Part shown: positions 2,376-34,109 of the stretch, piece by piece | How the letters are laid out: every line of letters starts with the position of its first letter | Numbering within the stretch: position 1 is the stretch's first letter | Source of the DNA: Isoetes taiwanensis | Lineage: Eukaryota; Streptophyta; Lycopodiopsida; Isoetales; Isoetaceae | Length of the DNA: 64,000 nucleotides | Assembly: GCA_021234155.1 (NCBI GenBank) | Contig: JAJEKV010000071.1 | Coordinates: 6,384,236 to 6,448,235, forward strand | Reading direction: 5' to 3' | The notes under the pieces: model-generated | Told to the model about the DNA's origin: nothing | Database searches by the model: none | Seen by the model: only the letters and a program-made list of their open reading frames with translations | Made by a program: the position numbers and the translations under genes

Positions 2376-2662
2376 TTCTGAATCATCGTAACGGCCTGTA
2401 TATGCCCAGATCCTTTCGATCATGAACATTTGATACTCTCTATTCCATAGGAGATGGATGATAACATCGACGGGATTAGGATAATGGCGAGGATTGAGAG
2501 CAACATTGGTGAGCGAGTCTTCAAGCGGTATATCTCGCCGCGGACCGCTTGTAGTCCCTCATGATTCATCTTGCAAGTGATAGAATCACATTCAAGACCG
2601 TAATACGTCATAGCTAGAGGCGGAGGCCAATGTTGTGACTTTCGGCAATTTGATGTATATTT

Positions 2663-2740
2663 ATACCCACCAAAATTATTGATGGTATAAACCCACCAAA
2701 ATTATTGATGGTATATGCTCACCAAAATTATTGATAGTAT
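2663..2740. repeat. 30-bp repeat, 3 copies
   Basis: 'caccaaaattattgatggta' occurs three times in a row, the last with one change. Copy 2 of the large duplication (about 11,374-11,435) has only two units, so this array has changed length since the duplication. Confidence 0.85.
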
Positions 2741-2814
2741 ATACATAGAAATTATTGGATCATATACATGTATGGTACTCATATAATGGCAATGAACACC
2801 AATAATTCACATCA

Positions 2815-3579
2815 ATGGAGCAAAACTTTCTATTCGCCACTGTGCTTGAACGACTGGAATCCAGGTCCAGAGTTTTCGTTGGAATGTATGAAGAGGAGGC
2901 TGGAGCTACAGGTGGTGCAGGAATAAAAGAGCCACAAGCTCTCGTTCTTGCTACGAGGATTTCTGCACACACGGGAGAGCCTGATGAAGACCTGGATCTC
3001 AGGCTGTATGGTAATCATCCTCGGAAGATCCCGGCAATTCCTCCTATTCCTAAAGAAGCCATCGGAAGTGAGGGAGATGTTATGGCCAAAAAACTCCTGC
3101 AAGACAGGTTTAAATTCAGTTGGCAAGGTATGGAAGGAGAATACCTGGTTCATAAGCAGATTGGTCCTGCAACTGCGTTCTACCTTGTTGATAAGCTCTG
3201 CCCTCCAGGTAACATCGTACTAGATTTCTTCTCTGCTGGAGCGTTCTCTAGGGCATCACTTCATGTAGGAAGAATCAGTGCGACGTATGAGCATGACTTC
3301 GGCAAGATCAAATGCATAATGGGCATTCTGGCTAGGGTCGAGAATGTCATATACCCCTTGCTTGATCCAAAGGCCATTGGCGAACGCGAAGTTCTGACTA
3401 TCAAAGATGGTGGAGCAGCCGGGGCACAAAATGAGGGGGACGAATCAGGTGCTCATGCAGAGAAGGGTGAGACATCCGGCCAAGGTGAACCTGAGGGGGA
3501 GGAGCAAATTGACCGCAGTAAGATTAACCCTGAAGACTACGAGAAAGTCGATGATGAGCACTTTGCCCACGACTACTAA
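2815..3579 (+). CDS. DNA-methylase-like protein of a transposon-type family (copy 1, open)
   Basis: The ORF encodes 254 residues. Residues 135-153 (VLDFFSAGAFSRASLHVGR) followed by a hydrophobic strand and a C-terminal helix match, in order and spacing, the AdoMet-binding motif-I region of N4/N6-type DNA methylases (LDPFxGSGT...LGR). I do not see the catalytic (N/D/S)PPY box, so activity is doubtful or that half lies elsewhere. The tail (residues 198-254) is hydrophilic, rich in Glu and Gly, and ends HFAHDY. A second locus in this window (44055-44669, minus) carries a similar block. The ATG is the first in this frame after a stop-filled upstream stretch. It could be one exon of a larger transposon or domesticated gene. 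The fold is inferred from motif shape, not from a search. Confidence 0.55.
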   Translation: MEQNFLFATVLERLESRSRVFVGMYEEEAGATGGAGIKEPQALVLATRISAHTGEPDEDLDLRLYGNHPRKIPAIPPIPKEAIGSEGDVMAKKLLQDRFKFSWQGMEGEYLVHKQIGPATAFYLVDKLCPPGNIVLDFFSAGAFSRASLHVGRISATYEHDFGKIKCIMGILARVENVIYPLLDPKAIGEREVLTIKDGGAAGAQNEGDESGAHAEKGETSGQGEPEGEEQIDRSKINPEDYEKVDDEHFAHDY

Positions 3580-3669
3580 AAAAATTGTATCTCCATATGA
3601 AAAATTGTATACAAATTGTATTTTTGTTAATATATAACTACATGGACTTGTGTATAAAATGTGTTCTCT

Positions 3670-3960
3670 ATAGGGAAATAGCGCGAGCGCACTTTTTGCT
3701 CGTGATAGCAAATAGCGCGCCTGCACCATTTGTTTGGTTTCACGTTAAAGCAAATACCGCGTCCGCGCTATTTGCTTCGTCATTAATATCGCGCGGTCGC
3801 GCCATTTTGTTTGCCCGCTGGACTTTTTTCTGCATTTCAATGTCTGCTTTTGAGGTTTTCGGGGCGCTATTCCTTACATTTTCCTAGTAAATCGCGCCAT
3901 GGTTCTCTTCTAAAAATCTAAAACCGCGCTGTTTTATATCAAATGTAGCGGTTTTGGCAT
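3670..3960. repeat. Cluster of GC-rich palindromes
   Basis: Directly after the methylase-like ORF the AT-rich background is broken by 'aaatagcgcgagcgc', 'aaatagcgcgcctgc', 'ataccgcgtccgcgctattt' and 'atcgcgcggtcgcgcc'. These are variants of one motif in both orientations, and several can form hairpins. The same cluster is in copy 2 at about 12,360-12,640. Arrays of short repeats in both orientations are typical of subterminal regions of some DNA transposons, but no terminal repeat was found to prove this. Confidence 0.6.
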
Positions 3961-4418
3961 GATAACCAGTTTCTTCTTAAGTAAATAGTGCCATATCTAT
4001 CGATAAGTCTGTGATAAAACAGGGAAAAAACTGATTTCGCAAGAAATTGGAATCACGAAATTTCCAAATTTAATGAAACTCTGCTTAAATTGTTCATAAT
4101 AGAAGAACGCTAGAGGGATCCACAACCTCTCATATTGCTAATCCATCATAATGTCATAATAGAGCAATGGATTCACGTCCTAACCATCCAATCCGACAAG
4201 ATTCAGTGCCTTAGACTTGAGTCCGTGGAAATACACACAAAAAGAAGAAGAGAATAATCGAGGTGTATGAAATGGTGCAATGCAAAAACTCAATAAGGAA
4301 ATACTTAATCGCCCGAAAGCAAATGATCATGATTAAAATCAAAGGTGAGTTGGCCTATTTATATCCGATTACATTCCTGTGTTATGTACACAACCTCACT
4401 GGCATTAAAATCCCTAAA

Positions 4419-5290
4419 TCACAAGAAAATAAAATTTATCCTCCCCGATGTAGATGCTCTCGGTTGTTGTTTAAGATTGCGTGAAAACTCGATGTGATCA
4501 TGTGATGACAGTTTAAAGACGATCATTAAAAAGACCCGGTTTGGTACATACTTGGAGATGAAAGCAAGTAGCCATCTTAGTTCAATTTTGTGTAACTCTT
4601 TGAGCTCAAGCAATGATGATTCAAATCTCTCAACGCATTTCTTAAAACCAAGAAAAGGAACCGCCAAGAACATGTCCTTCAAAAATTTACTATTTTTGGT
4701 AATAAAAGGCATTAATGATAGAGCACAAAAATACAGCCTTTGAAATTGAGCGATGAAAAACCTAATCGGATTCTTTGAGATAGGTAAGAGGCTCGTGTGA
4801 TTCTTCCTTCTTGCTTCCGTAATCTGCGATGACACACTCTCGAAAAATCCAAGGGCTCAAACACCAAACAAAAGTCGGTTCTATCAAAACGAATCAATCC
4901 CGGATGCCGCAGCCCCCATCTATCCTCCTATTTTCTAATGTCATCGCCTCATCTCGCATGATCTTGCCGCCACTATTTGTGAAGCAATCAACCGGGAACC
5001 TTAGGGCAAGCGCCTTTAATTCAAAAGCGCACTTAAGTCGATGTTAACGGGAATAGAATTTTGGGGCTGCACATTGGCACCGCTTAATAATTCTGAATAG
5101 AAATCAGGGGGCTTGATTCCGCTGATCCCGTCGAGCACATGCCATTTTGTTCAAACATCGGGTAATTTTTTCTCCCCTCTTCAAGCCAGATCCTCCCTCT
5201 TCCGCACGGTTGTGGGGCCTTTGTCGCCGATTGTAGAACCCTCCTCAAGTAGCTCCATTCCCCGCACATCATATACTTTGCATCATTGCA
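4419..5290 (-). pseudogene. Coding-like block of unknown function (copy 1)
   Basis: The minus strand shows a 138-codon ORF (4419-4835) with MPFITKNSKFLKDMFLAVPF and KKCVERFESS, and upstream a block beginning MFEQNGMCSTGS. In copy 2 (13,136-13,990) the same peptides are read, including GGKIMRDEAMTLENRRIDGA in one frame. Preservation of the peptides across both copies mainly reflects the recent duplication, so it is weak evidence for function. Frames break in different places in the two copies. I do not recognise the protein. Confidence 0.3.
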
Positions 5291-7404
5291 ATAATGGTCT
5301 AGGTTGGTGCCAATTATTGGTCAATTCATGTGTAAATTATCCCCACACACACGCATGAGAGACTCAAAAGTAGAGAGTCTTAAATAGTTAAGCTTTGAGT
5401 TAACCAATGGAGTGGGCATAGTTCACAAACTTGAGCTTGTGTTTCAAGTTTTAGGCATACAGAACTCATAGAATTGTATCCATTATCTAAGATTTGGATA
5501 GAATTCACGGACTTCAGTCCGTTATCTTAGATTTGGATAGGCCTATCCAAATCTAAAATTGACTGTAGCATAATTCAATTATTGTTGCTTGAGATTGTGT
5601 CGATTATCAAGATTTGGATAAAATTCACGGACTTGAGTCCGTTATCTAAGATTTGGATAGACTTGACTGTAGTATTATTCAATTATTGTTGCTTGGGTTT
5701 GTCACTTTAGAAATAAAATACATAGAGTCATATGGTTCATGGAATTTCATCCATTTCTAAATATATGGCTCATCCCATAGTTTAACATAAAGTCCAAGGT
5801 ATCTTCACGGACTTAAGTCCGTGATTGAGCTGCTTGCTCATAGGAATTTTCACAATATTGAGCTCGTAGTTCATAGATTTGAGTCTATAACTTGGGGCTC
5901 AAAATGTAGGACTTGACATTAGCATGTAATTGTTGGTTTGGGATTTGCTTGCTGTGTACTATAACTTCTCAACTTGATTGTTGGCTATGTTCATCGTTAC
6001 TTGTTGGTTGGGGCTCTTCTTATATTGCATATACTATTGTCTGTACATGATTGATTTTAGAGAATTTATGACTATAATTCGCAGGAACATTATTGTAGCT
6101 TACATCGATGTTGTTGGATTTAGATTGGGAAAACATTGTAGATAGCTCCGTAATATTAACCTAGCCAGAATATCCCAACCCTAATCCTTTTCATTCTCCT
6201 CACCTTGACCCTAAAACCTGACATGCAAAGAGAGGCTTATATTACAATCTCTTGGGGTCATGCCTAGGATTACATTTAGGGGGTTATCATTTTCATGCTC
6301 TCTATTCTATTCTATTCTATAAAATAGGTTTTTAAGTTAGGTTCATGTTAAACTCGAAATTTGCAAGCTCACTTTGTCACCCATATGGATTAGGATTAGG
6401 GCCAAGGCATATAAGGGATAGGATTATGCTAGACGTTATTAGGTTTAGATACACATTAGGACTATCTATAACATTTGCCACTTGTGCCATAACATGTAAC
6501 ATTTCTTGTTGTAGACATATAAATTATTTTTAGGTTCACGGAATTAAATATGCAGCTTTGACCTCTTTTTTATCGTGGTACTATACAAATCATGTTATGT
6601 ATAAATATGTCTAAATGGTAGACATCCATCTGAAATGTAGTGTCCAATGGACGATCAATGATATTCATGGTGCACTTGAAGAATAAGAGTCACTGAAGAC
6701 TTTGTTTGAAACATAGGGAAAAACTCTGAAATACCCTTATGTTTTGCTAAAATTAATAAAACGCCCCTAGTTTTGGGGGTATTTTTATGGAAATGATCAT
6801 AACTTTTTTGTGCCAAATGAGAATAAGTCTTTCAGATATATTGTAGAAGAGGTTGAGATCTTTCCATGAAAGTTAACATCTCCTGAATCAGATTCCGAAA
6901 CCTCAAGTTATGGTCTCGTAAATCCCTCTGAAATTTCTACAATTTTCTTATGTATTAAAAATAGCATAACTTGTGATTTAAGACTCCGCTTTATATGATC
7001 TTACATTTGATAGAAAGATCTCATCCTCCTTTACAATAGTTCTGAAAGGGTCATTCTCATTTGGATCATCACAAAAAAGTTATAATCATTTCCATAAAAA
7101 TCCCTTGAACATAATGTGACGAGGCTTGTGGAGAGGGATGGCTAAAAAGAGTCTCTGTTTTATGAGATCAACCTAGTTTAGCATGTCCGAGAATCATGGT
7201 AGCAGTGCATCAAATTATTAACTGCAACTATCAAAATGCAGACTAGATTGTAAGATAAAATATGTATCAAACTTGATGCAGACTTGTTTCAACATTTTAT
7301 ATCGTTGCTAAATAACATTAAATACTAACCAAATGAAGTTAAAATGGGAAGTGGGATTCTCTCAATTTAATTGCATAAGGCTTGTATGTTATATGCACTA
7401 AAAT
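5291..7404. other. Non-coding, with recurring palindromes
   Basis: No gene is supported. The stretch holds the 'cacggactt..agtccgtg' palindromes (5506, 5626, 5806), a (TATTC)n run near 6300-6325, and a pair of phrases (about 6770-6860 and 7020-7100) that are partly inverted copies of each other ('tttatggaaatgatcataac' versus 'gttataatcatttccataaa'). These could form a large foldback of about 330 bp. Confidence 0.5.
5506..5823. repeat. Three palindromes of the CACGGACTTNAGTCCGTG type
   Basis: The palindromes are 'cacggacttcagtccgttat' at 5506, 'cacggacttgagtccgttat' at 5626 and the perfect 18-bp 'cacggacttaagtccgtg' at 5806. The first two are followed by the repeated phrase 'agatttggatag' and lie in a roughly 120-bp direct repeat that includes 'attcaattattgttgcttg'. 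Related half-sites are at 4213 and, in copy 2, at 12,853, 12,905, 14,189, 14,310 and 14,489. Their function is unknown. Confidence 0.75.
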
Positions 7405-8890
7405 TGTTAATCGATCATTCCTCCAATGGGACTTTGAATTTCTTGTTGAATCTTAAAAGTGTAATTTTAAAGCAAAATCAATCATTGAAACTATTGCATC
7501 CTTTGGAAATGTTTCCAAACACTCCTTGAATTGCCCTGGCTCGCCATCTACCCTCACAGCGGTTGTGTGGAATGAATTCCTTCAAACACTTTCCCGACAT
7601 GCTCGAAAATATCAGCAGAAGACTTGTGGTCTTGTAAACCCGGTTTAGTGACTGTTTTTTTCCCAGCTTATAATCTCCTTTGTCAACAGGTTCTTCTACA
7701 GATTCATTACCTTGTGATATGTCTTCCACTCCACTCGCACACCCGATTTTGAAATTCTCTTCTTTTGGACATGTTGGCAGCTTGCTAGGTCCACACTTAT
7801 TACACTTGAGAGTTAGGCAGTCATGTGCATACCATTCTTCACTTTCATCTCTTGGACAAACAAGAGACCTCCAAAGCTCACTTGTTGAAGCATAGGTGCT
7901 CTTCCTTGCCATGCATGTTGGTCCAGACTACAAACTTCACGTGCATTTACAATTTGGACCATGAATTTTTTCATCATGTCTTACTTTGTTAATTGCAAGT
8001 CGAATAAAATCTGCTCTCATATAATAGACACAACATCATGTCTCTCTGTCCTTTACTTTCCTAACATAAGGGGGTTTCAAGGCATTTAAAACCGAGAAAG
8101 AAACCTCAAACTTGATGAAACAATTCTAACTACAAATCGAAGCTAAATTTATCAATGCAAATACCTCTATTATAGCAAGTACCGTGATTATGAGAGTCGA
8201 TCCAACCTCTACAAAGATTGCCAACATCCATAACTTCAAAGATCCTCAAATGAGATTCCACCATATTCTCCTGTAATTTTAGCATGTCGGTTTAGTTTTA
8301 TAAACCAAGTAACAAATTTAAATTGCATACTCGACATGTTGAAATCATGTTCAAAGTCCATAAATTCAGCACCCATCTTTGAAGCAAAGACCATTGAATG
8401 AATTACTCGCTCCACCGAAAGCAAAGACATTACATCAGTCAGCAATTTAGAACAAAAAAAATCAGCAATTTAATAGCAGAAGCATTTAACAAGGACTACC
8501 TTATCTTTCATCTTCATGATGGAATTCTTGATCTGAATTTTCGACTTCATATGTAGTTTCTTCATTCCTTGTGAAATCCCTTTGTTTGAGATGAAATGTG
8601 AGTGCCGGCCGATTTGTATAGGTTATTCTTCGAGGTAATTTTCTACAAATTGTGACCAAGCACTCGTAAATCGTTTGGAATTGTTGACGAACTCTTGCAT
8701 GCCCGCCAGTATTCTCCGGGCATCAAATTGCGCACAATGCTTGGACACAGAAGCAAGGAATTCATCTTTCAACTCAAGAAGCATAGCTGTGCTTCAAGAA
8801 ACGTTGAAACATCATAATTCTGAAGGTGCAGCATTTGAATTGGGTGGGGAAATTCCAATTCGAATTGGAGATTGCAAACTAAAATTTCGG
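7405..8890 (-). pseudogene. Decayed transposase-like gene (copy 1)
   Basis: Reading the minus strand from right to left gives, in several frames: a region with MQEFVNNSKRF; ITGEYGGISFED; a Cys-rich block with KSTYASTSELWRSL, ESEEWYAHDCLTLKCNKCG and SKLPTCPKEE; then FIPHNRCEGRWRAR; and finally IDFALKLHF with RNDRLTILVHI. The order resembles plant and animal transposon proteins with a C-x-x-C-G...LCP block followed by an IPHN...W.A.QF...F and IDFAENY...HW...Q.TILVH region. I know this pattern but not an official family name. Frameshifts break it many times, some at CAG/CTG positions where copy 2 is better, so part of the damage may be sequence error. Confidence 0.5.
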
Positions 8891-9498
8891 GATCGATGAC
8901 TTGGCCAAAAATAGCGATTCTGATGGATCTTGACTCCCGCTCAAGGCTGGCTATGGCGGGTGAAGTGCCCGGAAAAACATGAAGGGTCGTTTAAAAATTT
9001 GATGGCGGGTATCAAAGACCTTACCAGCACCAATGTCGTGACATGATTTTTTGAGTAGGTAAAAAAAAAAAAGCACCCATTCATAGGTACTTGCGCCTGA
9101 GGTCACTTGGAAGAGAAAGCAGGGCGCTCTTCCGACGTCTATTCCGTCTTAGACGTTGATTTTTTAGACGAAAAAAAAAAAACGAAAAAAGCTTAGTTTT
9201 TGGGCAGAACAATATTACCCTATCTATTCTCGGCCAATGCATCATGTGCTTCAACTCTTTCAATTTTATTCTTGGCGCAAGAGCCAAAAAGAAGATTTAA
9301 TGCATTAAACCATATTGATAATGACATAAGGACAACTGAGCAATCGATTGCACCATAGTGTAAGAAATGAGATCGAAGCTAATCTTGCTCTTCCAACCAT
9401 CAAACATCACAATGAGAGAGAATAAATGACTAGCCAAATCCTATCCTCCTAAATATCTCAATGATCTAAGAAGAATCGGAAGTATTCCACATGCTGGC

Positions 9499-9580
9499 GT
9501 GGATGTGCCAGAGTGGTTATTGGGCATGACTAGAAATCATGTGGGCTTTGCTCACATAGGTTCGAATCCTATCATCCACG
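9499..9580 (+). tRNA. tRNA-Ser(AGA), copy 1
   Basis: The 82-nt cloverleaf has a perfect 7-bp acceptor stem (gtggatg / catccac) with discriminator G. The anticodon stem catga/tcatg carries the loop c-t-AGA-a-a, giving anticodon AGA. A long class-II variable arm (gtgggctttgctcac) and the perfect T arm atagg-ttcgaat-cctat follow. The A box (tgccagagtgg) and B box (ggttcgaatcc) are readable. A T-run (attttat) about 20-30 nt downstream can serve as the pol III terminator. CCA is not encoded, as expected for a eukaryotic nuclear gene. Confidence 0.95.
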
Positions 9581-11091
9581 TGTAGGAGCTTGTTCATATT
9601 ATTTTATAGTCCCTATTACATACGTCCATTCGATTAATATTTAGAGTTTGTCATTCATATTCCCCACGCACTCTTCCACTGACGCAATATTCCAGGGTTT
9701 ATGCATAGCCCCCATTAAAGGCAGTATAGATGGTTAGAGAAGGGGATAATTCCCTCAACCAGCACACATCCAAACCAATTTAGTACACATCCAACCCATG
9801 AGCAAACAACCTAACCAATTAATATGCAACATACATATACAATTGGAGATGAGCACATATGCACATCGTTTTCTTCGCAGGTGCAAGGAACATAATCCCA
9901 AGCATGTTTGCAAGTACCCTCCGAGTGATGTGTGCGGCCATCACAAGCCATAAGATCAAGGAAGAGGTGTCTTGCTCCAGACCTGAAGGGAGAGTGCACG
10001 TATCTAGTGATGACTTCTGTCAAGCCTTGGCAACCCAAAAGTCTAGAAGGACAGAGGTCAAAAAGTTGAAGATGGAGCAACCTGCAGCTCGAAAGATCGA
10101 GGCTGCAAGGAGGAGCTGTCATCAGAGAAACACCCCCTATGATGGATCAGATGCAGCAACCTGGTAGTCCTTTATAGAGCCCTATTATGGGTGACAGGCC
10201 AAGCAAGATGATGAAGATGTGCAAGTCATATGCAGCCATAAAGACACACACATTTACTCGGATGATGCTCGAGTGGTGGCAGGTTGTAGGCATTGAGGGA
10301 TACTTACCTATGGTTAGACCTGTGCCAAACTCAATCAACATAGGTCACCAATTAAGAGATAGAACTTGGCCAGCAAGGAGGTAGAACCCCAACAAAATGC
10401 TGACATTGGCCATGGCAATTCCATGAGCTAGACACACAGGGTTAGATGAATTATGCTGCAGCCAATTCAGGAACCCAACACGACCAGGATAGGGCTGTGG
10501 ATAAGGCAAGGATTATAAAGGAGATGGTGAAAATTAGAGTGCACTTAGATCCCCAGGGGGTATGATTCCGGAGGACGGGATCCCACAGTAAGCATGCCTT
10601 ATTGCGCAGTAACTGTGCAAAAATCTTGCAAAATCAAGGTAAAGTTCCGATGGGTTTTTCTCGCCCGATCCTCCGCGGAATCGGATGGGATCTGTTCGTG
10701 GGTGGTCGGAATCAGTTGGAGGAGCGGATTCGGTAGCAGCGGAGGAGGAAGCAGGGCGAGAGCTGCTGCAATGTAGCAGCTCAAATCTGGGCAAAAAATA
10801 TCCCAAAACTGCGCAGTAACCCATTAACTGCAAGCAGTTGATAGTGGGATCCCGAGGAGGGGATCCCATTTAGTGATCCCCGAGGGCGGGATCAGCCCAA
10901 ACCAAGGTACATTTATCTTCACCCTCTATAGCTCCGTAGCTTCATCCGTATACCTTAGACAATTGCACCCTAGCATTCGAAAGCCATAGATCCGTTCTAA
11001 ATAATCAAAGAACAAAGCAATATGATGCATTGGTTTCCGTTTATTCATGTAAACATGTATAGATAGATACCTTTAAAAGCAATTTTAACCG
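9581..11091. other. No recognised gene
   Basis: A 102-codon plus-strand ORF at 9859-10167 (MHIVFFAGARNIIPSM...) has a counterpart in copy 2 (18,552-18,908), but a minus-strand ORF of similar length overlaps it, and neither resembles a known family. Around 10,545-10,900 the words 'gggatccc' and 'gatcccc' recur in both orientations near both ends of a GC-richer block, hinting at a small inverted-repeat element. Confidence 0.35.
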
Positions 11092-11137
11092 TACAAGAAA
11101 TTTATCGCGGCGGCCAAGGCCGTCGCAAACATTTCTT
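11092..11137. repeat. TACAAGAAATTT / GCGGCGGCC palindrome motif
   Basis: 'tacaagaaatttatcgcgg' is followed by the palindrome cggccaaggccg. It recurs at 19,792 and twice at 24,259-24,356. The opening resembles the CACTACAAGAAA ends of plant CACTA transposons, although the leading CAC is not present here. It lies about 140 bp before the copy 1/copy 2 junction. Confidence 0.6.
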
Positions 11138-11499
11138 TGGCTCCAAACCTACCCAGTAGTAAATTATTACTAATGTCTTAACATTTGATAAATTTCTAAA
11201 CTAGATTTGGATATGGAGTGGTTTTGTATATCTCAAGCGGTATATCTCGCTCGCGGCACCGCTTGAAGTCCTCATGATTCATCTTGCAAGTGATAGAATC
11301 ACATTCAAGACCAGAATACGTCATAGCTAGACGGAGGCCAATGTTGCTGCACTCGGCAATTTGATGTATATTTATACCCACCAAAATTATTGATGGTATA
11401 TGCTCACCAAAATTATTGATAGTATATACATAGAAATTATTGGATCATATACATGTATGGTACTCGTATAATGGCAATGAACACCAATAATTCACATCA

Positions 11500-12264
11500 A
11501 TGGAGCAAAACTTTCTATTCCCATCAGGCTTGAACGACCGGAATCCGTGTCCGAGTTTTCGTTGGAATGTATGAAGAGGAGGCCGAGCTCACGGGTGGTG
11601 CGGGAATAAAGAGCCACAAGCTCGCGTTCTTGCTACAAGGATTTCTGCACACACGGGAGAGCCTGATAAAGACCTGGATCTCAGGCTGTATGGTAATCAT
11701 CCTCGGAAGATCCCGGCAATTCCTCCTATTCCTAAAGAAGCCATCGGAAGTGAGGGAGATGTTATGGCCAAAAAACTCCTGCAAGACGTGTTTAAATTCA
11801 GTTGGCAAGGTATGGAAGGAGAATACCGTTCATAAGCGATTGGTCCCGCAAGAATCGTTTCTACCTTGTTGATAAGCTCGCCCTCCGTGTAACATCGCAT
11901 TACTAGATTTCTTCTCTCGGGCTGGAGCGTTCTCTAGGGCATCACTTCATGTAGGAAGAATCAGTGCGACGTATGAGCATGACTTCGGCAAGATCAAATG
12001 CATAATGGGCATTCTGGATAGGGTCGAGAATGTCATATACCCCTTGCTTGACCCAAAGGCCATTGGCGAACGCGAAGTTTGACTATCAAAGATGGTGGAG
12101 CAGCAGGGACAGAAAATGAGGGGGGCGAATCAGGTGCTCATGCAGAGAAGGGTGAGACATCCGGCCAAGGTGGACCTGAGGGGGATGAGCAAATTGACCG
12201 CAGTAAGATTAACCCTGAAGACTACGAGAAACTCGATGATGAGCACTTTGCCCACGACTACTAA
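11500..12264 (+). pseudogene. DNA-methylase-like ORF, copy 2 (frameshifted)
   Basis: This is the counterpart of the 254-residue ORF at 2815. The ATG is kept at 11,500, but indels near 11,520-11,600, 11,826-11,915 and 12,078 shift the frame. The tail is open again from 12,079 to the shared stop after HFAHDY. Nearly every disruptive change sits where copy 1 has CTG or CAG (for example 'aatacctggttc' versus 'aataccgttc'). The gene may therefore be intact in the real genome; as written it is broken. Confidence 0.7.
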
Positions 12265-13135
12265 AAAATTGTATCTCCATATGAAAAATTGTATACAAAT
12301 TGTATTTTTGTTAATATATAACTACATGGACTTGTGTATAAAATGTGTTCTCTATAGGGAAATAGCGCGAGCGCACTTTTTGCTCGTGATAGCAAATAGC
12401 GCTTTGCACCATTTGTTTGGTTTCATCGTTAAAGCAAATACAGCGGCGCGGCGCTTATTTGCTTCATTATTAATTATCGCAGTGCCGCCATTTTGTTTGC
12501 CCGCTGGACTTTTTTCTGCATTTCAATGTCTGCTTTTGAGGTTTTCGGGGCGCTATTCCTTACATTTTCCTAGTAAATCGCGCCATGGTTCTCTTCTAAA
12601 AATCTAAAACCGCTACCGTTTTTATATCAAATGTAGCGTTTTGGCATGATAAATTTCTTCTTAAGTAAATAGTGCCATATCTATCGATAAGTCCGTGATA
12701 AAACAGGGAAGAAACTGATTTCGCAAGAAATTGGAATCACGAAATTTCCAAATTTAATGAAACTCGCTTTAAATTGTTCATAATAGAAGAACGCTTAGAG
12801 GGATCCACAACCTCTCATATTGCTAATCCATCATAATGTCATAATAGAGCAATGGACTCACGTCCGTGATCTAACCATCCAATCCAACAAGATTCAAAGG
12901 CCTTAGACTTGAGTCCGTGAAATACACACAAAAAGAAGAAGAGAATAATCGAGGTGTATGAAATGGTGCAATGCAAAACTCAATAAGGAAATACTTAATC
13001 GGTGCCCGAAAAAAATGATCATGATTAAAATCAAAGGTGAGTTGGCCTATTTATATCCGATTACATTCCCGGGTTATGTACACAACCCAATGGGCATTAA
13101 AATCCCTAAATCACAAGAAAATAAAATTTATCCTC

Positions 13136-13990
13136 CCCGATGTAGATGCTCCCCCGGTTGTTGTTTAAGATTGCGTAAAAACTCGATGTGATCATGTGAT
13201 CATGACAATTTTAAGGCGATCATTAAAAAGACCTGGTTTGGTACATACTTGGAGATGAAACGAAGTAGCCATCTTAGTTCAATTTTGTGTAACTCTTGGA
13301 GCTCTCGCAATGATGATTCAAATCTCTCAACGCATTTCTTAAAACCAAGAAAAGGAACCGCCAAGAACATGTCCTTCAAAAATTTACTATTTTTGGTAAT
13401 AAAAGGCATTAATGATAGAGCACAAAAATACGACTTTGAAATTGAGCGATGAAAAACCTAATCGGATTCTTTGAGATAGGTAAGAGGCTCGTGTGATTCT
13501 TCCTTCTTGCTTACGTAATCTGCATGACACACTCTCGAAAATCCAAGGGCTCAAACACCAAACAAAAAGCTCTCGGTTCTATCAAAACCGATCGATCCCG
13601 GATGCCGCAGCCCCATCTATCCTCCTATTTTCTAATGTCATCGCCTCATCTCGCATGATCTTGCCGCCACTGTTTGTGAAGCACCGAACGGGAATCTTAG
13701 GGCAAGCCGAGAATTCAAAAGCACCTCCACGGTTGATGTTAATGGGAATAGAATTTTGGGGCTGCCGCACGCCCCAATAATTGGAATAGAAATCGGGGCT
13801 TGATTCCACTGATCCCGCCGAGCACATGCCATTTTGTTCAAACATCGTAATTTTTCTCTCCCCTTCGCCAGATCCTCCCTCTTCCACGGTTGTGGGGCCT
13901 TTGTTTGCCGATTGTAGGGACCTCTGGCGAGAGCTCCATTCCCCGCAGACATCATATACTTTGCATCATTGCAATAATGGTCTAGGTTGG
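13136..13990 (-). pseudogene. Coding-like block of unknown function (copy 2)
   Basis: Counterpart of 4419-5290. The frame with GGKIMRDEAMTLENRRIDGA is open for about 100 codons (13,582-13,887), and MPFITKNSKFLKDMFLAVPF is kept at 13,200-13,409. The protein is not recognised. Confidence 0.3.
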
Positions 13991-14188
13991 TGCCAATTAT
14001 TGGTCAATTCATGTGTAAATTATCCCTCACACACACAGACAGAGACTCAAAAGTAGAGAGTCTTAAATAGTTAAGCTTTGAGTTAACCAATGGAGTGGGC
14101 ATAGTTCACAAACTTGAGCTTGTGTTTCAAGTTTTAGGCATCTGTAACTCATAGAATTGTATCCATTATCTAAGATTTGGATAGAATT

Positions 14189-14506
14189 CACGGACTTCAG
14201 TCCGTTATCTTAGATTTGGATAGGCCTATCCAAATCTAAAATTGACTGTAGCATAATTCAATTATTGTTGCTTGAGATTGTGTCGATTATCAAGATTTGG
14301 ATAAAATTCAGGACTTGAGTCCGTTATCTAAGATTTGGATAGACTTGACTGTAGTATTATTCAATTATTGTTGCTTGGGTTTGTCACTTTAGAAATAAAA
14401 TACATAGAGTCATATGGTTCATGGAATTTCATCCATTTCTAAATATATGGCTCATCCCATAGTTTAACATAAAGTCCAAAGGTATCTTCACCGGACTTAA
14501 GTCCGT
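14189..14506. repeat. Palindromes of the CACGGACTTNAGTCCGTG type, copy 2
   Basis: Counterparts of the copy 1 set at 5506-5823 lie at 14,189, 14,310 and 14,489. Two of the three carry one-base changes inside the left arm ('cacgg' to 'cagg', 'cacgg' to 'caccgg'). Confidence 0.7.
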
Positions 14507-16089
14507 GATTGAGCTGCTTGCTCATAGGAATTTTCACAATATTGAGCTCGTAGTTCATAGATTTGAGTCTATAACTTGGGGCTCAAAATGTAGGACTTGA
14601 CATTAGCATGTAATTGTTGGTTTGGGATTTGCTTGTCGTGGTACTATAACTTCTCAACTTGATTGTTGGCTATGTTCATCGTTACTTGTTGGTTGGGGCT
14701 CTTCTTATATTGCATATACTATTGTGCGTACATGATTGATTTTAGAGAATTTATGACTATAATTGATAGTAGAACATTATTGTAGCTTACATCGATGTTA
14801 TTGGATTTAGATTGGAGAAACATTGTAGATAGCTCCGTAATATTAACCTAGCCAGAATATCCCAACCCTAATCCTTTTCATTCTCCTCACCTTGACCCTA
14901 AAACCTGACATGCAAAGAGAGGCTTATATTACAATCTCTTGGGGTCATGCCTAGGATTACATTTAGGGGGTTATCATTTTCATGCTCTCTATTCTATTCT
15001 ATTCTATAAAATAGGTTTTTAAGTTAGGTTCATGTTAAACTCGAAATTTGCAAGCTCACTTTGTCACCCATATGGATTAGGATTAGGGCCAAGGCATATA
15101 AGGGATAGGATTATGCTAGACGTTATTAGGTTTAGATACACATTAGGACTATCTATAACATTTGCCACTTGTGCCATAACATGTAACATTTTTTGTTGTA
15201 GACATATAAATTATTTTTAGGTTCACTTAATTAAATATGCACTTTTGACCTCTTTTTTATCGCGTGGTACTATACAAATCATGTTATGTATAAATATGTC
15301 TAAATGGTAGACATCCATCTGAAATGTAGTGTCCAATGGACGATCAATGATATTCATGGTGCACTTGAAGAATAAGAGTCATCAAGACTTTGTTTGAAAC
15401 ATAGGGAAAAACTCAAATACCCTTATGTTTTGCTAAAATTAATAAAACGCCCTAGTTTTGGGGGTATTTTTATGGAAATGATCATAACTTTTTGTGCCAA
15501 ATGAGAATAAGTCTTTCAGATATATTGTAGAAGAGGTTGAGATCTTTCCATGAAAGTTAACATCTCCTCGAATCGATTCAAACCTCAAGTTATGGTCTCA
15601 GAAATCCTCCGAAATTTCTACAATTTTCTTATGTATTAAAAATAGCATAACTTGTGATTTAAGACTCGCTTTATATGATCTTACATTTGATAGAAAGATC
15701 TCATCCTCCCTTACAATAGTTCTGAAAAGGGTCATTCTCATTTGGATCATCACAAAAAGTTATGATCATTTCCATAAAATCCCTTGAACATAATGTGACG
15801 AGGCTTGTGGAGAGGGATGGCTAAAAGAGTCTCATTTTTTATGAGATCAACCTAGTTTAGCATGTCCGAGAATCATGGTAGCAAAGTGCATCAAATTATT
15901 AACCGCAACTATCAAAATGCGCAGAACTAGATTGTAAGATAAAATATGTATCAAACTTGATGCGTGGACTTGTTTCAACATTTTATATAATTTGTTAAAT
16001 AACATTAAATACTAACCAAATGAAGTTAAAATGGGAAGTGGGATTCTCTCAATTTAATTGCATAAGGCTTGTATGTTATATGCACTAAA

Positions 16090-17500
16090 ATTGTGCACCC
16101 GATCATTCCTCCAATGCAGACTTTGAATTTCTTGTTGAATCTTAAAGCTGTAATTTTCAACAAAATCAATCATCAAACTATTGCATCCTTTGGAAATGTT
16201 TCCAAACACTCCTTGAATTGCCCGGCACGCCATCTACCCTCACAGCTTGTGTGGAATGAATTCCTTCAAAGACTTTTCGACATTCGGAAAATATCAAGAA
16301 GACTTGTGGTCTTGTAAAACCGGTTTTATCAATCGCTTTTTTTTCCCAAATTTTATAACCTCCTTTGTCAATAGGTTCTTCTACAGATTCATTACCTTGT
16401 GATATGTCTTCCACTCCACCTGCACACCAGTTTTGAAATTCTCTTCTTTTGGACATGTTGGCAGCTTGCTAGGTCCACACTTATTACACTTGAGAGTTAG
16501 GCAGTCATGTGCATACCATTCTTCACTTTCATCTCTTGGACAAATAAGAGACGTCCAAAGCTCACTTGTTGAAGCATAGGTGCTCTTCCTTGCCATGCAT
16601 GTTGGTCCAGGACTACAAACTTCACACGTGCATTTACAATTTGGACCATGACTTTTTTCATCATGTCTTACTTTGTTAATTGCAAGTCGAATAAAATCTG
16701 CTCTCATATAATAGACACAACATCATGTCTCTCTGTCCTTTACTTTCCTAACATAAGGGGGTTTCAAGGCATTTAAAACTGAGAAAGAAACCTCAAACTT
16801 GATGAAACAATTCTAACTACAAATGTAAGCTAAATTTATCAATGCAAATACCTCTATTATAGCAAGTACCTGTATTATGAGAGTCAGATCCAACCTCTAC
16901 AGCATTGCCAACATCCATAACTTCAGCATCCTCAAATGAGATTCCACCATATTCTCCTGTAATTTTAGCATGTCAGTTTAGTTTTTATAAACCAAGTAAC
17001 AAATTTAAATTGCATACTCGACATGTTGAAATCATGTTCAAAGTCCATAAATTCAGCACCCATCTTTGAAGCAAAGACCATTGAATGAATGACATTTCCT
17101 ACCGAAAGCAAGACATTACATACATCGGCAATTTAGAACAAAAAAAAAAATCAGCAATTTAATAGCAGAAGCATTTAACAAGGACTACCTTATCTTTCAT
17201 CTTCATGATGGAATTCTTGATCTGAATTTTCGACTTCATATGTAGTTTCTTCATTCCTTGTGAAATCCACTGTTTCAGATGAAATGTGAGTGCCAGCTTC
17301 GATTTGTATAGGTTATTCTTCGAGGTAATTTTCTACAAATTGTGACCAGCACTCCAGAAATCGTTTGGAATTGTTGACGAACTCTTGCATGCCCGCCAAA
17401 GCATTCTCCCGCATCAAATTACGACAATGCTTGGACATGTAGCAAGGAATTCATCTTTCAACTCAAGAACCATACCGTGCTTCAAGAAACGTTGAAACAT
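16090..17500 (-). pseudogene. Decayed transposase-like gene (copy 2)
   Basis: Counterpart of 7405-8890. A 108-codon ORF (16,381-16,707) joins MRADFIRLAINKVRHDEK, CKCTCEVC, SELWTSLICPRDESEEWYAH and KCNKCGPSKLPTCPKEE in one frame and continues to VEWKTYHKVM. The upstream part reads MRENALAGMQEFVNNSKRFL and DFTRNEETTYEVENSDQEFH. This copy is the better witness for the N-terminal two thirds; copy 1 is better for the start of the FIPHN block. The gene is still interrupted. Confidence 0.5.
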
Positions 17501-19925: not shown

Positions 19926-22230
19926 TAGTTACCCAAAAGTTATAGTGAAACCATAGAGATGGAGATAATTCCACTGTTTTCATTTGATGGATGTGAGTTG
20001 AAAAGGTTTTGCTCTTAGAGACAGATAAAAAAAATTGCATAGATCATTGGATAAATAGAAGGGATTCGATGTCAATTTGGAAGAGTTTAATAAGGCTATG
20101 TGTGTACCACAAGGAAAACGGAGATTCACAAGAGGGCAAGGCATCACCTCAAGAAAGAAGGGTCAAACATGAAAATAGAGAAAAGAAGCTTTAAGAACTT
20201 GGAATAAAGATCAAGATAACCAAGACCATGTTAGAAGGGGATGAACTAGAATTTTTAAAGCTATCATGGAGAAGTTGCAAGATTTCCTGATAAACCATGC
20301 CCTATTAGCCTAAAGTCTTCTATGTGGCTTTTCAATTGATAGCTAGCGTTCAATTTCAGAAGGGGTATTACAAAATAACCTGACCTAAATGACTTGGCTT
20401 AATTTCTTAATAATACTACTAGAGGATACCCTTAAGAACTCCACAAATATTAAATTGCATTATAAAATGTACACCATTCTTGGGTTTTATTGCACGTTGG
20501 TATCTGCAATGGAATCCAACATTTTGGCATTAAGACACAACCATTGAGCACTTGAGATGAATCGAAATATTTAAACGAATATAGTAAGAAACGTATTGTG
20601 CTTTGACAATTCCTTTGGCAAGGCTTTGTGCAGTCCATTCATTCGCAAGATTAGTGTTGTGGTTGAAGAGATCTTATTGACATTGCAAGCCTCTTGGATT
20701 TGGGACATTACAAAATGGGCTCTACATGGATTTGTCTTCAAATTCCAATTGCTCTTATTATTAACGATCTGCTCTTTAATAATAAAGAAAATAAAAACAG
20801 ACAGGAAGTAGAAGGATTTTATTAACCACCTGTTGGGTCTAATGTTGTAGGGTCTATTAGACATAGGGTCTATTAGACAGCATTATAAACCTGCAAGCCT
20901 CCTAGTTGCTTAACATGCACTATTGTTAAAGAGCATTACCCAAGAATTTTGATTCATTGCCATGTTGGCTGAAGTAAAAATAAGCTCTGGTGTCAGCACT
21001 TGGCCCCATTGATTTTCTTCTCTGTTGGACTGCTTATGCCTTGAGTCTCTGATTGTTTTATTGTCTTGGAAGTTGGTAACACGACTCCATTAATATCTGG
21101 AGATTTCCTTCTTTTCAAGATGACCCCTCCATTGGATCATCTCTCTGTGAGGTTTCGCCCTGTATGCTATTGCACGAATCAGGACAATCCTATAAGCCCA
21201 ATGGGGTCATGAATTAATTTGAGATTTTCCTGGTGCATTAACAAAATCATGCCTGGCAGTTTGATTCCGACTCTTCACAGTATCAAAGGGAGCAAATGCT
21301 TCCTTCTAATATGCAATCTTAAAACATAGCTCAGGCTAGGAATCCTTCGGATTAACCTGTGCTTAAGAAAGTTAAGAAAAGAGAAGGCACCGGAGCTCAC
21401 ATGCTTTGTCGCTGAGCTCGACCGAAGTTTCGCAAAAGGTAACCGTGGGTATTTAATTTAAATTTGTTTTGCCAAATTTATTTGAGAGATTATGCTCACG
21501 CCTAACAAATGCAAACTGTGAGCTAAAACATCTAGAGCGTAAGATGTGCGTAGTCTCTATGCTTCTCGCTAACCTCGTTTAGACCTGGCAAAGAACTACT
21601 CCATGAAACATGCCGCACTCGAGACTTTCTTACACGCTTTATGCTTTGTTGCTCCAAGACAAAGCTTCTAGAGCAACTACTCCATGAAACATGCAAAGAC
21701 CAAGAAAAACTTTCTTTCTTCCGTGAAGTTTCAAATCTCAAAGCCGAGAGCCACATTCGCCGACATGGCAAAAAGCCCCCGAGACCTACCCAATTCATCA
21801 GGCTCGGTTTACCCATAACCCGAGCTCGATCACAAACCCAGACTGGTTATGAACTAGGCTTGCATTTAGCACTTTCACTGCCACCTCCAATCCATCGTTT
21901 ACCAAGAATCCTCTATTATACACGCAAGAAGACCTCCCTCTTCAAAGTACTTGGCTAAACCCTTTCGTGGCAATCTTTAGTGCAGCATAATCAAAATCCT
22001 TAATACCAACATCCTTCAGCTTTGCTTTCCAGTTCTGCTCATCCGACTTCTGCTTTTTTCACATTCATTCCATCTCTATTATCTGCAGGAGCCGGTTCTG
22101 AACGATTAAGCAGGCCCGACTTGTAAACATAGAAAACATTTTTTTAATGGCTTGTCCGTTCAGGATCCTACATGGCGGCACATTTGCTCTAGCCCACTCC
22201 ACTGTAAGAACCAGAATCAACACCCATATA
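19926..22230. other. No gene seen
   Basis: Unique sequence after the duplication. Only short unconvincing ORFs are present. A short direct repeat of 'actactccatgaaacatgc' occurs at about 21,595 and 21,677. 'gggtctattagacatagggtctattagacag' near 20,850 is a 16-bp tandem pair. Confidence 0.45.
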
Positions 22231-29660: not shown

Positions 29661-30217
29661 TGTTAGAAATTCAAGGCGCCAGTAAGATAAACTCAATCTA
29701 TTCTTGAACTTACGCAAAATTTCCTTCTTAGCAGCTTTTTCCTCCTCGATACAACCGTCATGCTGCATTCGGCAGCAGATCCAATCAACTTGGGATCCGA
29801 TAATCCCACAAACCAAAGACCCAACTGGTTTCACAAACTGGGTTTCCAATCCGTAGCTCGCAGCAATTCCGACCCAGTAGGAACTTCGACCGCAGCTAGA
29901 TAACTCCAAATCCGGCCGCAACACTCAGTCCGATTCCAAAATCTAGAACCTTGATCCAGTGTGAAGAAGTGTTCTCGCCCAAAACCGTCTGCAAAGAATC
30001 TCCACCGGAATATCAATTTCGGGCTTATTCAAGCTCCGGCTTCAACCTTCGATTCTTCAATCTGATGTTTCCACCAGATTCCACGGGCCCTTCCTTTCTC
30101 GCGTGTATTCTTCCCCGTTTCCTCATTTTTTTTATTCCAAAACCATCGACATTTTCAATGCCACGCCACCGTTAAATGTCGGATGTTAAATGCAGACCCA
30201 TGTTAACATTTTCAACA
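29661..30217 (-). repeat. 3' LTR of the Copia element
   Basis: It begins 'tgttagaaattc' and ends 'attttcaaca' on the plus strand. It aligns end to end with 33,545-34,109. Differences concentrate at CAG/CTG positions of the other LTR. Confidence 0.95.
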
Positions 30218-30227
30218 CCCCCTCACC
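30218..30227 (-). other. Polypurine tract of the Copia element
   Basis: On the minus strand 'ggtgaggggg' directly precedes the 3' LTR, the expected place for plus-strand priming. Confidence 0.75.
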
Positions 30228-30351
30228 AAAGATTTATCGCTTTAATACCTATGGCATCTCGCCAAAAATATCCATGCTTACTTTCTACCAATGCTTTTGT
30301 TAATATGTTCCGCTTCTTGTTTAGCAAAGAGGAATATATTGCAAATCAACT

Positions 30352-30585
30352 TCACTCGCTACTACTTTCTCTCTTATAAAATGATAATGCATCAATATGC
30401 TTTGTTCTTGAGTGCAACACTGGATTTTTAGCAATTGCTATGCAACTTTTATTGTCACAATACAACTTTGTTGGGCAGTTCGTTTTCTCCAATTCCCGCA
30501 ATAATCGCCTCAACCAAATTATTTCTCCGCTTTGCCAAGGAGGCGGACATCGCATCCGACTCAAAGACTTGACATAGCCACACAA
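30352..30585 (-). pseudogene. Copia RNase H fragment
   Basis: The reading frame has LYCDNKSCIAIAKNPVLHSR followed by TKHID, the hallmark of the Copia RNase H C-terminus (CDN...A..NP.FH.RTKHI). Upstream on the minus strand (about 30,600-30,690) other frames show DLDERKSTTGYLCKLNGAVI and WCSKKQN, the preceding part of the same domain, separated by frameshifts. Confidence 0.85.
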
Positions 30586-31384
30586 TTTTGCTTTTTGCTA
30601 CACCAAGAAATCACTGCACCATTAAGTTTACACAAGTATCCTGTTGTGGACTTTCGCTCATCAAGGTCTCTGCCCACCTAACTGCATCTCAGATAACCAT
30701 CAATTCCGTGATAGCCAACTACTTTAGGATTATCACAAAGCTTTTAGCGAAAGCAAATACCATGGTGCATTGTACCTTTCAAGTACCTAAGAATACGCTT
30801 TTAGCAGCGAACTCCAATGTTCCCATCCCGGTTATTCAAATATCTACTCAACAAATTTACACCAAACGCGAATATCCGGTCTCGTGGCATTTGCCACGAA
30901 AAGCAAACTTCCTATAAGTTCCCTATATGGTATTCCTTGCATTTTTTTTCCTCCCCTACCATCGGGGACAAATCTCCAGAAATTCTCTTACCAACCACAA
31001 GAGGAGCTCGGCGACGGGTTTACATTCACCCATAGAAAAAGTATCCAACATCTTCTTAATATATGACTTGTGTTAAAGCCAATTCTCCGCTTTGTCTATC
31101 TCTATAAACCTCCATGCCCAAAAGTTTTTTTAAGTTTACCAAGATCACTCATCCAAATCTAGCTCTCAACACATTTTTGCATTCATCCATAAACTTTTCA
31201 TCACTAGCACTCATAACACAATCATCTACATACAATGCTATGATGCAAAATTTATCATCTACCCTTTTAATGTAGAGATTACCTTCACTTTGCAACTTTC
31301 CAAACCCCCTGCGAGCAATGTAAAGCTATTCATGCATACGCATTCACGCTTCTAGTCGCTTGCCTAAGCCCATACATCGCCTTT

Positions 31385-31885
31385 TCAATTTGCGTGCATC
31401 TTATTTCCTTGTACCTCAAATCCGACTGGTTGTTCCATATAAATCTCCTCTTCTAAATCCCCATTGAGGAAAGCCGTTTTTACATCCATATGGTCGAGCT
31501 CTAAATCATGCTCAACTGCTATAGCAATCAAAGCCCGCAAACTTGTTAGTTTAACAATAGGGGAAAATGTGTCATGATAATCTTTACCAGCTTCTTGAGT
31601 AAATCCTCGAGCCACCAATCTAGCTTTATATCTTTCAATGTTTCCATCAGCTCCCTTTTTTATTTTAAAGATCCACTTACATCCTACCACATTTTTACCT
31701 TTTGGCCTAGGTGTGAGATCATAGGTACCTGTCTGCTTGAATGACTCGAGTTCTTCTTGCATGGCTTTCCTCCACTTGTCTGCATTAGGAGAATTGACAG
31801 CTTCATCATAAGTTTCAGGTTCTTTAACACACAAAGATTGTCGCCGCTGTTCTCTCAGTGCTTCTTCCAAGTTCATAGGCTTCAA
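31385..31885 (-). pseudogene. Copia reverse transcriptase, N-terminal part
   Basis: This 166-codon frame matches the RVT_2 domain: KWRKAMQEELESF, VVGCKWIFKIKKGADG, RYKARLVARGFTQEAGKDYH, DTFSPIVKLTSLRALIAIAV and MDVKTAFLNGDLEEEIYMEQP. It breaks just before the 'YGLRQ' motif, which is found in another frame at about 31,350. The catalytic YVDD is read further on as ALYVDDCVM near 31,230. The RT is thus complete in content but not in frame. Confidence 0.92.
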
Positions 31886-32777
31886 ATTTCTTTTGAAGTC
31901 TCATACCATTTCCAGTGCTCCTCCCATGCTCATCTCTTCCATACTTCGGATACATCAATGGGAGCTTGTTTCAACCTTTCTCGTGATCGGGGTTTTATGG
32001 CGCCATGAACTTGAATTTCTTTCTATCGGGTTGTTGTTCTTCCACCGTAACATCTTCCGTACACCATTCTCTCCCTCTTCTACTACATGTTCTTCATTGT
32101 CACTACTTCCTATTTCTATAGGGCTTTCCATGCCTCCATCCCTGCATTTGAATTCTCGTTTCATTTTCATCATCATCTTCATCGCCAAACCATCCTCGGT
32201 GCCTGTGGCTGTGACTTCTTTTTTTCCGACACATCACTTTTAATTGCCCTATCTTTATAAAATTTAGTTTCACAAATACCACATCCCGACTTATATAAAT
32301 TTTTCCCGGTTTTAGGATCATATAGTCTGCACCCTTGCTCCTCATACCCAACCAAATATGTTTCTATGCTACTTATCATCTAGTTTGGACCGCAACTCTT
32401 CCTCGCACATGCATATACCCTAAACAACCATATGCACGCTAGCCTCTTTTACTGCATTGTTTTTACCGGACCATACCTCTTCGTGAATTCTTCCTTGATA
32501 CCAAGTAGACGCAATTTATTTTGAATGTAACATGCAGCCGAACCGCTTTCCTGAGGAGATAGTTAGGGCAACCCCGCATGTTTTAACATAGATCTTACCG
32601 CGCTCATAAGGGTCCTGCTTTTTTCTCCGCATGATGCCATTCTCACTGGGATATATCGCACGCAAATTGACGCCTAATCCCTTTCTCACGACAAACTGCA
32701 TGAATGGCCCGCATAAATATTCTCCCCCGAACTGAGCGCAAGCGTTCAACTTCCTAGACGTTTTCTCGCTCAAACCG

Positions 32778-33518
32778 CTAGATACAATTGGAATGCCCGA
32801 ATGCTTGATCCTTCGATTTCAAAAAATAACATTTTGTTCTCCGGGAAAAATCATCAATAAATGTGATGAAATATGTCTTGCCACTCATACTCTGAACACG
32901 CATCGGTCCGCACAAATCTGTATATACCAAATTCAAGAGTCCCAAAGTTTTGGCAAACCTGGGCTTAAAATTCTGTCTAGTTTGCTTCCCAAGCATACAA
33001 CCACGACAAATTTTGTGCTCTTCTGCAGTTATGCTGTTAGGCAAATCTTCTACCAAATTATGTTTGCTCATGATTTTTATGGTTGCATCATTTACATGGC
33101 CAAGTCTGAGATGCCACAAATCTAATAAATTAACACTTCCAACACAAGGCACAGCATCCAAGCAATACAATTTCCCTTTTCTTCTTGCATATATCCTTCT
33201 ACCATTACCCACCATTTCACAACGATAAGAATCAAAATTTACTTTATATCCCGAGTCTACTAAGTCTGCAACTGAAATCAAGTTAAATAACATACCAGGA
33301 GTATATAAAGCATTCTCCAAACATATTTTATCTTCACCTTCATGATAAAACTCCAACTTTCCACATCCTTTTACTTCATGCAAATGCCCATTTCCCATCT
33401 GTACACATGGTGTGTGAGACTCTCTTATAGTTTTCATCAATTTCTCCGAAGCAATCACTGTTCTCTCAGCTCCTGAGTCAATGGTCAGTGGAACTGTTGC
33501 AGCAGAATTTGTGTCCAT
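32778..33518 (-). pseudogene. Copia protease, GAG-pre-integrase and integrase N-terminal part
   Basis: This 246-codon frame starts with ATG at 33,518, about 25 bp inside the 5' LTR. Protease: PLTIDSGAERTVIASEKL (catalytic D-S-G). GAG-pre-integrase with zinc ligands: LWHLRLGHVN ... CRGCMLGKQ. Integrase core: LVYTDLCGPM and FITFIDDFSRRTKCYF. The frame is lost at about 32,777; the next frame (32,516-32,773) carries GGEY and SENGIMRRKKQ, the second half of the integrase core, with several small indels. Gag is absent upstream. Confidence 0.93.
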
Positions 33519-33531
33519 AATTATGACCCTT

Positions 33532-33543
33532 GCTCTGATACCA
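33532..33543 (-). other. Primer binding site, initiator-Met tRNA
   Basis: The minus strand reads tggtatcagagc, starting two bases inside the 5' LTR. This is the classic plant Copia primer binding site complementary to the 3' end of initiator tRNA-Met. Confidence 0.95.
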
Positions 33544-33544
33544 C

Positions 33545-34109
33545 TGTTAGAAATTCAAGGCAGCAGAAGATAAACTCAATCTATTCTTGAACTTACCGGG
33601 CAAAATTTCCTTCTTAGCAGAGCTTCTTTTTCTCTGATACAAACTGGCTGCGGTACCTGCAGCAGGATCCAATCAACTTGGGATCTGACAATCCCACAAA
33701 CCAGCACCCAATCTGGGTTTCACAATCTGGCTTTCCAATCCAGAGCTCTGGCAGCAATTCCGACTGCAGGAACTTCGACTGCAGCAGACAACTCCAAATC
33801 CGGCTGCAACACTCAGTCCGGATTCCAAAATCTAGAACCTTGACAGCAGGTGACAGCAAGTGTTCTGCCCAAACCGTCTGCAGCAATCTCCACCTGGAAT
33901 ATCAATTTCGGCTATTCAAGCTCCGGCTTCAACCTTCGATTCTTCAATCTGATGTTTCCACCTGCATTCCACCGGGCGCCTCTCCTTTCCGCCTGTGTAT
34001 TCTTCCCTGTTTCCTCATTTTTTTTATTCCAAAACCACCGACATTTTCAATGCCACGTCACCGTTAAATGCTGGATGTTAAATGCAGACCCATGTTAACA
34101 TTTTCAACA
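33545..34109 (-). repeat. 5' LTR of the Copia element
   Basis: This 565-bp LTR (TG...CA) keeps many CAG/CTG words that are altered in the 3' LTR. For example 'gtctgcagcaatctcc' here is 'gtctgcaaagaatctcc' in the other LTR. Promoter function is expected for a 5' LTR, but no TATA box was assigned with confidence. Confidence 0.95.

Follow-up and report, generated by a model that had tools for sequence, protein, structure and literature searches.

Why do repeated copies within a single stretch of a lycophyte genome differ from one another so often at the words CAG and CTG? The question is raised by 64,000 nucleotides of the Isoetes taiwanensis assembly GCA_021234155.1 (contig JAJEKV010000071.1, positions 6,384,236 to 6,448,235; hereafter the window), which hold a tandem duplication, a Copia-type element with its pair of long terminal repeats (LTRs) and a short tandem array. 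An initial annotation of these letters had taken the differences to be sequencing errors that trace CHG methylation (H being A, C or T). Our analysis leads to a closely similar answer, to which we give a probability of roughly four in five: the differences are nanopore consensus base-calling errors at CAG/CTG (together CWG), most likely brought about by 5-methylcytosine from the plant CHG pathway. The two parts of this answer differ in strength. The differences are demonstrably word-specific, dependent on context and patchy from locus to locus, with normal divergence elsewhere, and it is near certain that the replacements are an artefact. CHG methylation as their cause, on the other hand, we infer from an excess of C-to-T changes in clean copies, from DNA-methyltransferase exons in the genome, from the precedent of Dcm in bacteria and from the use of R9.4.1 flow cells and Guppy 3.1 on unamplified DNA in the publication whose assembly matches this one.

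We begin with the pairs of copies inside the window. The duplication consists of copy 1 (2521–11228, plus strand) and copy 2 (11233–19927, plus strand), which are 93.9% identical, and the Copia element (29661–34109) has its LTR pair, a reverse transcriptase (RVT_2) and a gag_pre-integrase domain all in place. Its LTRs, at 29661–30217 and 33545–34109 on the minus strand, are 87.6% identical (32 mismatches and 40 gap positions over 581 in BLAST). All eight site pairs named by the initial annotation are in the sequence as described: CAGCA stands as CAAAGA at 8,211/16,899, 17,706/9,023 and 19,069/10,369 and, in the LTRs, at 29,990/33,880 and 29,812/33,700; CTG stands as CTTTG at 18,184/9,491; and CCG, CG or CGTG forms occur at 11,540/2,860 and 8,190/16,870. 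Formal alignment and tabulation by trinucleotide, which had been proposed as a check, bear out the enrichment in both pairs. CAG/CTG is touched by 115 of 258 difference clusters in the duplication, as against 8.5% under random placement, and by 20 of 29 in the LTRs, as against 18%; in the duplication CAG is altered at 76/140 sites and CTG at 54/126, compared with 2199/17399 (12.6%) for all trinucleotides. In the four duplication segments that have copies outside the window, 54 of 100 clusters involve CAG/CTG, with a further 9 resembling double errors. A second LTR pair of the same Copia family, on contig C1053, has 11 of 14 difference clusters at CAG/CTG where 31% would be expected. Once the clusters that touch CWG are removed, substitutions fall from 367/8585 (4.3%) to 133/8585 (1.55%) in the duplication and from 83/551 (15.1%, an upper value that includes poorly aligned pockets) to 6/551 (1.1%) in the LTRs. 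The claim that losses run in both directions holds for the duplication, where 79 clusters have more CAG/CTG in copy 1 and 31 have more in copy 2 (5 equal), copy 2 being the more affected and copy 1 only partly so, with near-normal CAG/CTG at 10.0–11.0 kb. It fails for the LTRs, where CAG/CTG is lost from the left LTR (the 3′ one, should the element be read from the minus strand) in 17 clusters and from the right, which retains its CAG/CTG, in none, with 3 equal.

Sites can also be chosen without any use of the window. The segment at 43500–48508 has three homologues elsewhere in the genome, on contigs C1056, C1032 and C1034, and we took the sites at which CAG/CTG and its flanks are the same in all three, with CWH words (W being A or T) and their complements as controls. 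The window departs at 43 of 55 such CWG sites (37 by changes other than deamination) and at 51 of 564 control words (39 other than deamination), an odds ratio of 27.7 (p=6e-25). When each locus in turn is measured against two reference loci, rather than the three of the main count, CWG departures are 54/68 for the window, 8/67 for C1056, 1/57 for C1032 and 22/85 for C1034, where 13 of the 22 are deamination.

The tandem array next to this segment (48509–49616, 8.5 units of about 134 bp) allowed a prediction. Its units are alike except in pockets, most of which hold CAG/CTG in the copies elsewhere; over eight of the nine units, and counting as near CWG any column with CAG/CTG there in any of the eight, 114/496 cells differ near CAG/CTG and 15/616 in the other columns. 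Four pockets were predicted to hold CAG/CTG before copies elsewhere were retrieved, and the prediction largely held. In the C1056 array three of the four pockets have CAG/CTG in 8/8 units, and a fifth site outside the prediction has CAG in 8/8; the single C1032 unit has CAG/CTG at 4/4 pockets, and the two C1034 units at 4/4 and 3/4. The C1056 copy is without any CG in 1501 bases, as compared with 12.9 CG per kb in the window array. Aligned end to end, the two arrays count 11 CWG (window) against 39 (C1056) and 15 CG against 0, and the C1056 copy has CWG at 28 of 49 difference clusters.

How general is the pattern, and what decides the wrong word? The duplication segments are present many times in the genome, and four of them (X, Y, Z and T) were aligned, with rows from 33 genomic loci and from the window's two copies; some loci are missing from some segments (locus L038 is in no alignment). 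Sites were those with CAG/CTG in at least 60% of rows for the list of products, the per-row rates and the next-base test; the count of CG gains was made without this criterion. Two kinds of change are found there. One is C-to-T on either strand, as methylated cytosine usually leaves behind; the other is a set of odd words (CGG, CGT, CGA, C-G, CCG, TCG and CAAAG). Odd products make up 139/1433 at CWG and 263/9539 at control words, and are highest in 8 of the 35 rows. We call these eight bad, a class set after the rates were seen, at 0.118 or more: the two copies in the window, L006 (on the same contig, upstream), L011, L012, L014, L015 and L016, with rates of 0.118–0.321. L005 (0.10, segment X only) was counted as bad for CG gain and frameshifts and shown apart in the next-base test; the other 26 rows lie at 0–0.065. 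The tree, the divergence off CWG, the homopolymer and C-to-T counts given below, the comparison of CG density and the classes of cluster pairs use segments Y, Z and T only, in which L005 is absent.

A first alternative, that the bad loci are simply an older subfamily or that the copies are mixed haplotypes, can be weighed with these rows. L014, L015 and L016 do group together in a tree built from columns free of CAG/CTG, and the window copies group with L006. However, the bad rows are spread over more than one clade, with L011 and L012 among clean loci (support values being low), and cells off CWG depart from the majority no more often in bad rows (272/7056, 3.9%) than in clean ones (495/9471, 5.2%). 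Moreover, in two elements the LTRs of one and the same element differ mostly at CWG. Old divergence thus appears to us scarcely credible.

The class of product depends on the base that follows: mutual information is 0.739 over 53 distinct site-by-class events in five classes, the permutation maximum being 0.558 (0/5000). A tally from the duplication and LTR pairs alone had left many events unclassified and was set aside. Within the five classes 49 of 69 events hold a new CG, and new CG is found in 109/202 odd events at bad loci as against 35/141 at clean ones (p=7.5e-8). As a refinement of the idea of a caller trained on unmethylated DNA, the gain of CG suggests one that had met 5-methylcytosine mainly in CG. 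The dependence on the next base would also be expected under a second alternative, in which the caller misreads CAG/CTG in certain k-mers regardless of methylation and the bad patches are merely unpolished. Homopolymer lengths speak for it too, as they deviate at 7/80 in bad loci and 1/104 in clean ones (p=0.02; three of the seven longer, four shorter), as in unpolished sequence. On the other hand, CWG at the sites chosen without the window departs far more than control words that also hold cytosine, the products gain CG, and bacterial errors at modified motifs involve the same core words (PMC6591954, PMC10687267); a defect of this size at unmethylated CAG/CTG is not described in the literature examined, as far as the portions covered go. 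We therefore hold a weakness independent of methylation to be unlikely.

A third alternative is real mutation, that is, hypermutation or error-prone repair aimed at methylated CHG sites. C-to-T changes are indeed in excess at the CWG cytosines of clean loci (53/1149, against 70/4571 at CHH), which makes it probable that some real mutation has arisen from methylation; in bad loci they reach 65/625, part of which may also be error. Yet many products are changes of the middle base, deletions and CAAAG words rather than C-to-T, and 43 of 55 agreed CWG sites are altered where controls stand at 9%. Neighbouring array units differ from one another in their pockets, and one LTR is affected when its partner is not. 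Mutation as the general explanation is thus very improbable. The initial annotation's view that a word-specific error, rather than mutation, is at work is strongly backed by the window-independent sites, the array prediction, the next-base dependence and the absence of raised divergence off CAG/CTG. Its expectation that many frameshifts are artefacts is also borne out: frameshifting indels lie near CAG/CTG in 90/149 cases in bad loci and 19/91 in clean ones, where 14–38% of columns, depending on the segment, are near one.

Misreading of methylated CWG can now be placed beside what is recorded of the sequencing. The assembly analysed here has 1,658,258,908 bases in 1110 contigs, and the published version 1 of I. 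taiwanensis has 1658.30 Mb in 204 scaffolds and 909 contigs (PMC8566536); from this match we take nanopore to be the platform. That version was sequenced from unamplified DNA on R9.4.1 flow cells with Guppy v3.1 flip-flop, assembled with miniasm, racon, pilon with Illumina reads and optical mapping, and gap-closed in two rounds with one pilon step in between (PMC8566536). In the mechanism that we propose, the plant CHG pathway would have methylated both cytosines of CAG/CTG to 5-methylcytosine. Faced with the methylated signal, the caller would choose a wrong word that depends mostly on the local k-mer. CAG followed by A would give C-GA or CGTA, followed by C it would give CAAAG or CGAC, by G CGGG or CGTG, and by T CGGT, with the reverse complements at CTG. 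Long-read polishing would keep the error because it recurs in most reads; short-read polishing would remove it, so that errors would persist in patches left unmended. Failed short-read correction is thus the probable cause of the patchiness, and for the clean copies polishing seems likelier than a lack of methylation, because they carry the footprint of deamination; we read their C-to-T excess as the mark of CHG methylation over evolutionary time. Gap filling was considered as the sole source of the bad patches and rejected, as a bad locus also lies on C2; it may be insufficient by itself because C2, from its size and number, is taken to be an unplaced contig.

DNA-methyltransferase exons are found in the genome, with matches to PF00145, and by their motifs we take them to resemble MET1, DRM, DNMT3 and a chromomethylase. 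The chromomethylase-like exon (L045), which presumably belongs there from its likeness to CMT motifs, has a C5-methylase domain (PF00145, E 4e-9). As a separate observation, one DNMT3-like exon at C1061:58500-61500 (L046) matches PF00145 (E 2e-6) and another there matched no family; DNMT3 is not known from flowering plants.

Several results weigh against this reading. First of all, the copies do not differ 'almost only' at CAG/CTG, as had been claimed: the enrichment stands, but 143 of the 258 duplication clusters have no CAG/CTG in either copy. Second, words that hold CG are disturbed almost as frequently, CGC/GCG at 94/214 and CCG/CGG at 100/238 in the duplication, CGC/GCG at 14/14 in the LTRs (CAG/CTG 36/52), and CGA/TCG at 6/13 and ACG/CGT at 5/14 in 43500–48508; part of this would be false CG in one copy and part real deamination of CG, which the counts do not separate. 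Third, the gain of CG is uneven. Segment Y, at 25.7 and 25.6 per kb, gains none on balance, the array copies on C1032 and C1034 have 5.7 and 7.7 CG per kb, and the densities of CWG and CG within the window are, weakly, negatively related (rho -0.23, p=0.07). Fourth, the one predicted array pocket that fails in part reads ACTGCC in 4/8 units of C1056 and AAAAGCC in the other 4/8, a form found in the window as well, and with the window among its three references C1056 departs oddly at 2/12 CWG as against 7/485 controls. The next-base test leaves 76 of 468 bad-row cells outside it as 'other'. Fifth, the fraction of non-transition clusters that touch CWG is 37.5% in clean–clean pairs, 51.3% in bad–clean and 48.0% in bad–bad; clean–clean clusters often touch CWG because these families are rich in it, so that this fraction separates the classes poorly and per-site rates were used. 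In three of the four segments, frameshifts away from CWG are likewise more frequent in bad loci than in clean ones. Finally, no chromodomain was found beside the chromomethylase-like exon (C61; near C1026:7442183) with 150 of 8792 candidates scored.

The composition of the window as a whole carries the same mark. CAG/CTG is its most depleted trinucleotide (observed over expected, 0.60/0.62) and the most reduced relative to samples of the genome (ratio 0.70; the next is ACG/CGT at 0.78). The median of observed over expected CWG in 1-kb bins is 0.58 in the window (62 bins) and 0.87 in the samples (84 bins); the latter come from 14 readable samples of 16, two of the 16, and one of the four samples on the window's contig, being all N and giving no bins. 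For CGGT the window shows no excess (1.10 and 1.17 per kb). Patches on the kilobase scale may be flagged by low CAG/CTG together with raised CCGA, ACCG and CAAAGA words; such a reference-free index is restricted to kilobase maps, because on short loci it tracks the measured error rate weakly (Spearman -0.22/-0.34, p=0.22/0.05, 33 loci).

One clean patch, at 33001–38000 with edges near 33.0 and 38.0 kb, has near-normal CAG/CTG density and may be either unmethylated or polished. It contains the right LTR, an open reading frame (ORF) with a histone-fold domain of CBF/NF-Y type (35056–35697, plus strand) and most of the minus-strand ORF with Pol_BBD and gag_pre-integrase domains (32778–33554). The ORF fragment with the RVT_2 domain (31385–31900, minus strand) lies in the affected part, where the surrounding minus-strand frames are short. 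Elsewhere in the window, each tandem copy has an imperfect inverted self-match of about 320 bases (73–75%, 6777–7104 and 15468–15779), resembling a palindrome, and 62200–64000 is purine-rich and of low complexity, with many short tandem repeats and long minus-strand open frames. As for the assembly, 3 of 20 sampled 6-kb stretches (L050, L061, L063) consist of N throughout, and one of the three lies on the contig of the window (C1080:6100000-6105999). On the 34.6-kb contig C840 (L001, 9500–19400), where the portion covered has 29% GC, a photosystem reaction-centre gene (PF00124) adjoins tRNA-His and three other tRNA genes. The longest stretches of this contig that match other parts of the assembly are only about 77% identical to them, and the contig may come from the plastid of some other organism. 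A plastid-insert test with the psbA/psbD family was abandoned, since C840 matches other loci at only about 77% and two loci share only 255 bases.

How does the proposed error compare with known systems? In bacteria, the Dcm motifs CCAGG/CCTGG accounted for about 70% of consensus errors with the default callers of 2019 (Wick et al. 2019, PMC6591954). There, as here, a methylated CWG word goes wrong under default models, and training on such DNA nearly cured it; by analogy we regard the errors described here as the plant counterpart. Unlike the five-base Dcm motif, however, CAG/CTG is affected here in many contexts, in plant repeats and in patches, with rules set by the next base and with false CG. 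In Listeria, modification-mediated errors occur at GCAGC and GCTGG (PMC10687267), again with CAG/CTG as core words and remaining after polishing; they are removed by whole-genome amplification and, unlike those in Isoetes, come from lineage-specific bacterial modification systems, with no product words given in the portion of the paper covered. Methylation of native plant DNA is a suspected cause of lower nanopore caller accuracy (PMC9749173, PMC7501810). By term count the main text of the former has neither 'CHG' nor 'CAG', and the sole 'CHG' in the latter concerns the detection of methylation; the portions of the two papers covered show no list of wrong words. Among the papers listed, titles and openings of abstracts likewise describe no plant case in which CHG methylation causes consensus errors at CAG/CTG, which leaves absence from print unproven.

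In the assembly, errors at CWG disrupt reading frames, introduce spurious CpGs and make divergence appear too high, so pseudogene calls, ages of elements, CpG statistics and repeat divergence taken from affected patches would mislead; other plant assemblies made with callers of the same period may share the problem. More tentatively, the wrong words could form a fixed lexicon found at methylated CHG sites only, so that old, uncorrected nanopore patches in plant assemblies would record methylation at the time of sequencing. Were this so, the CHG methylome of a lycophyte would be partly readable from the text of its assembly alone, with the false CpGs as its marks.

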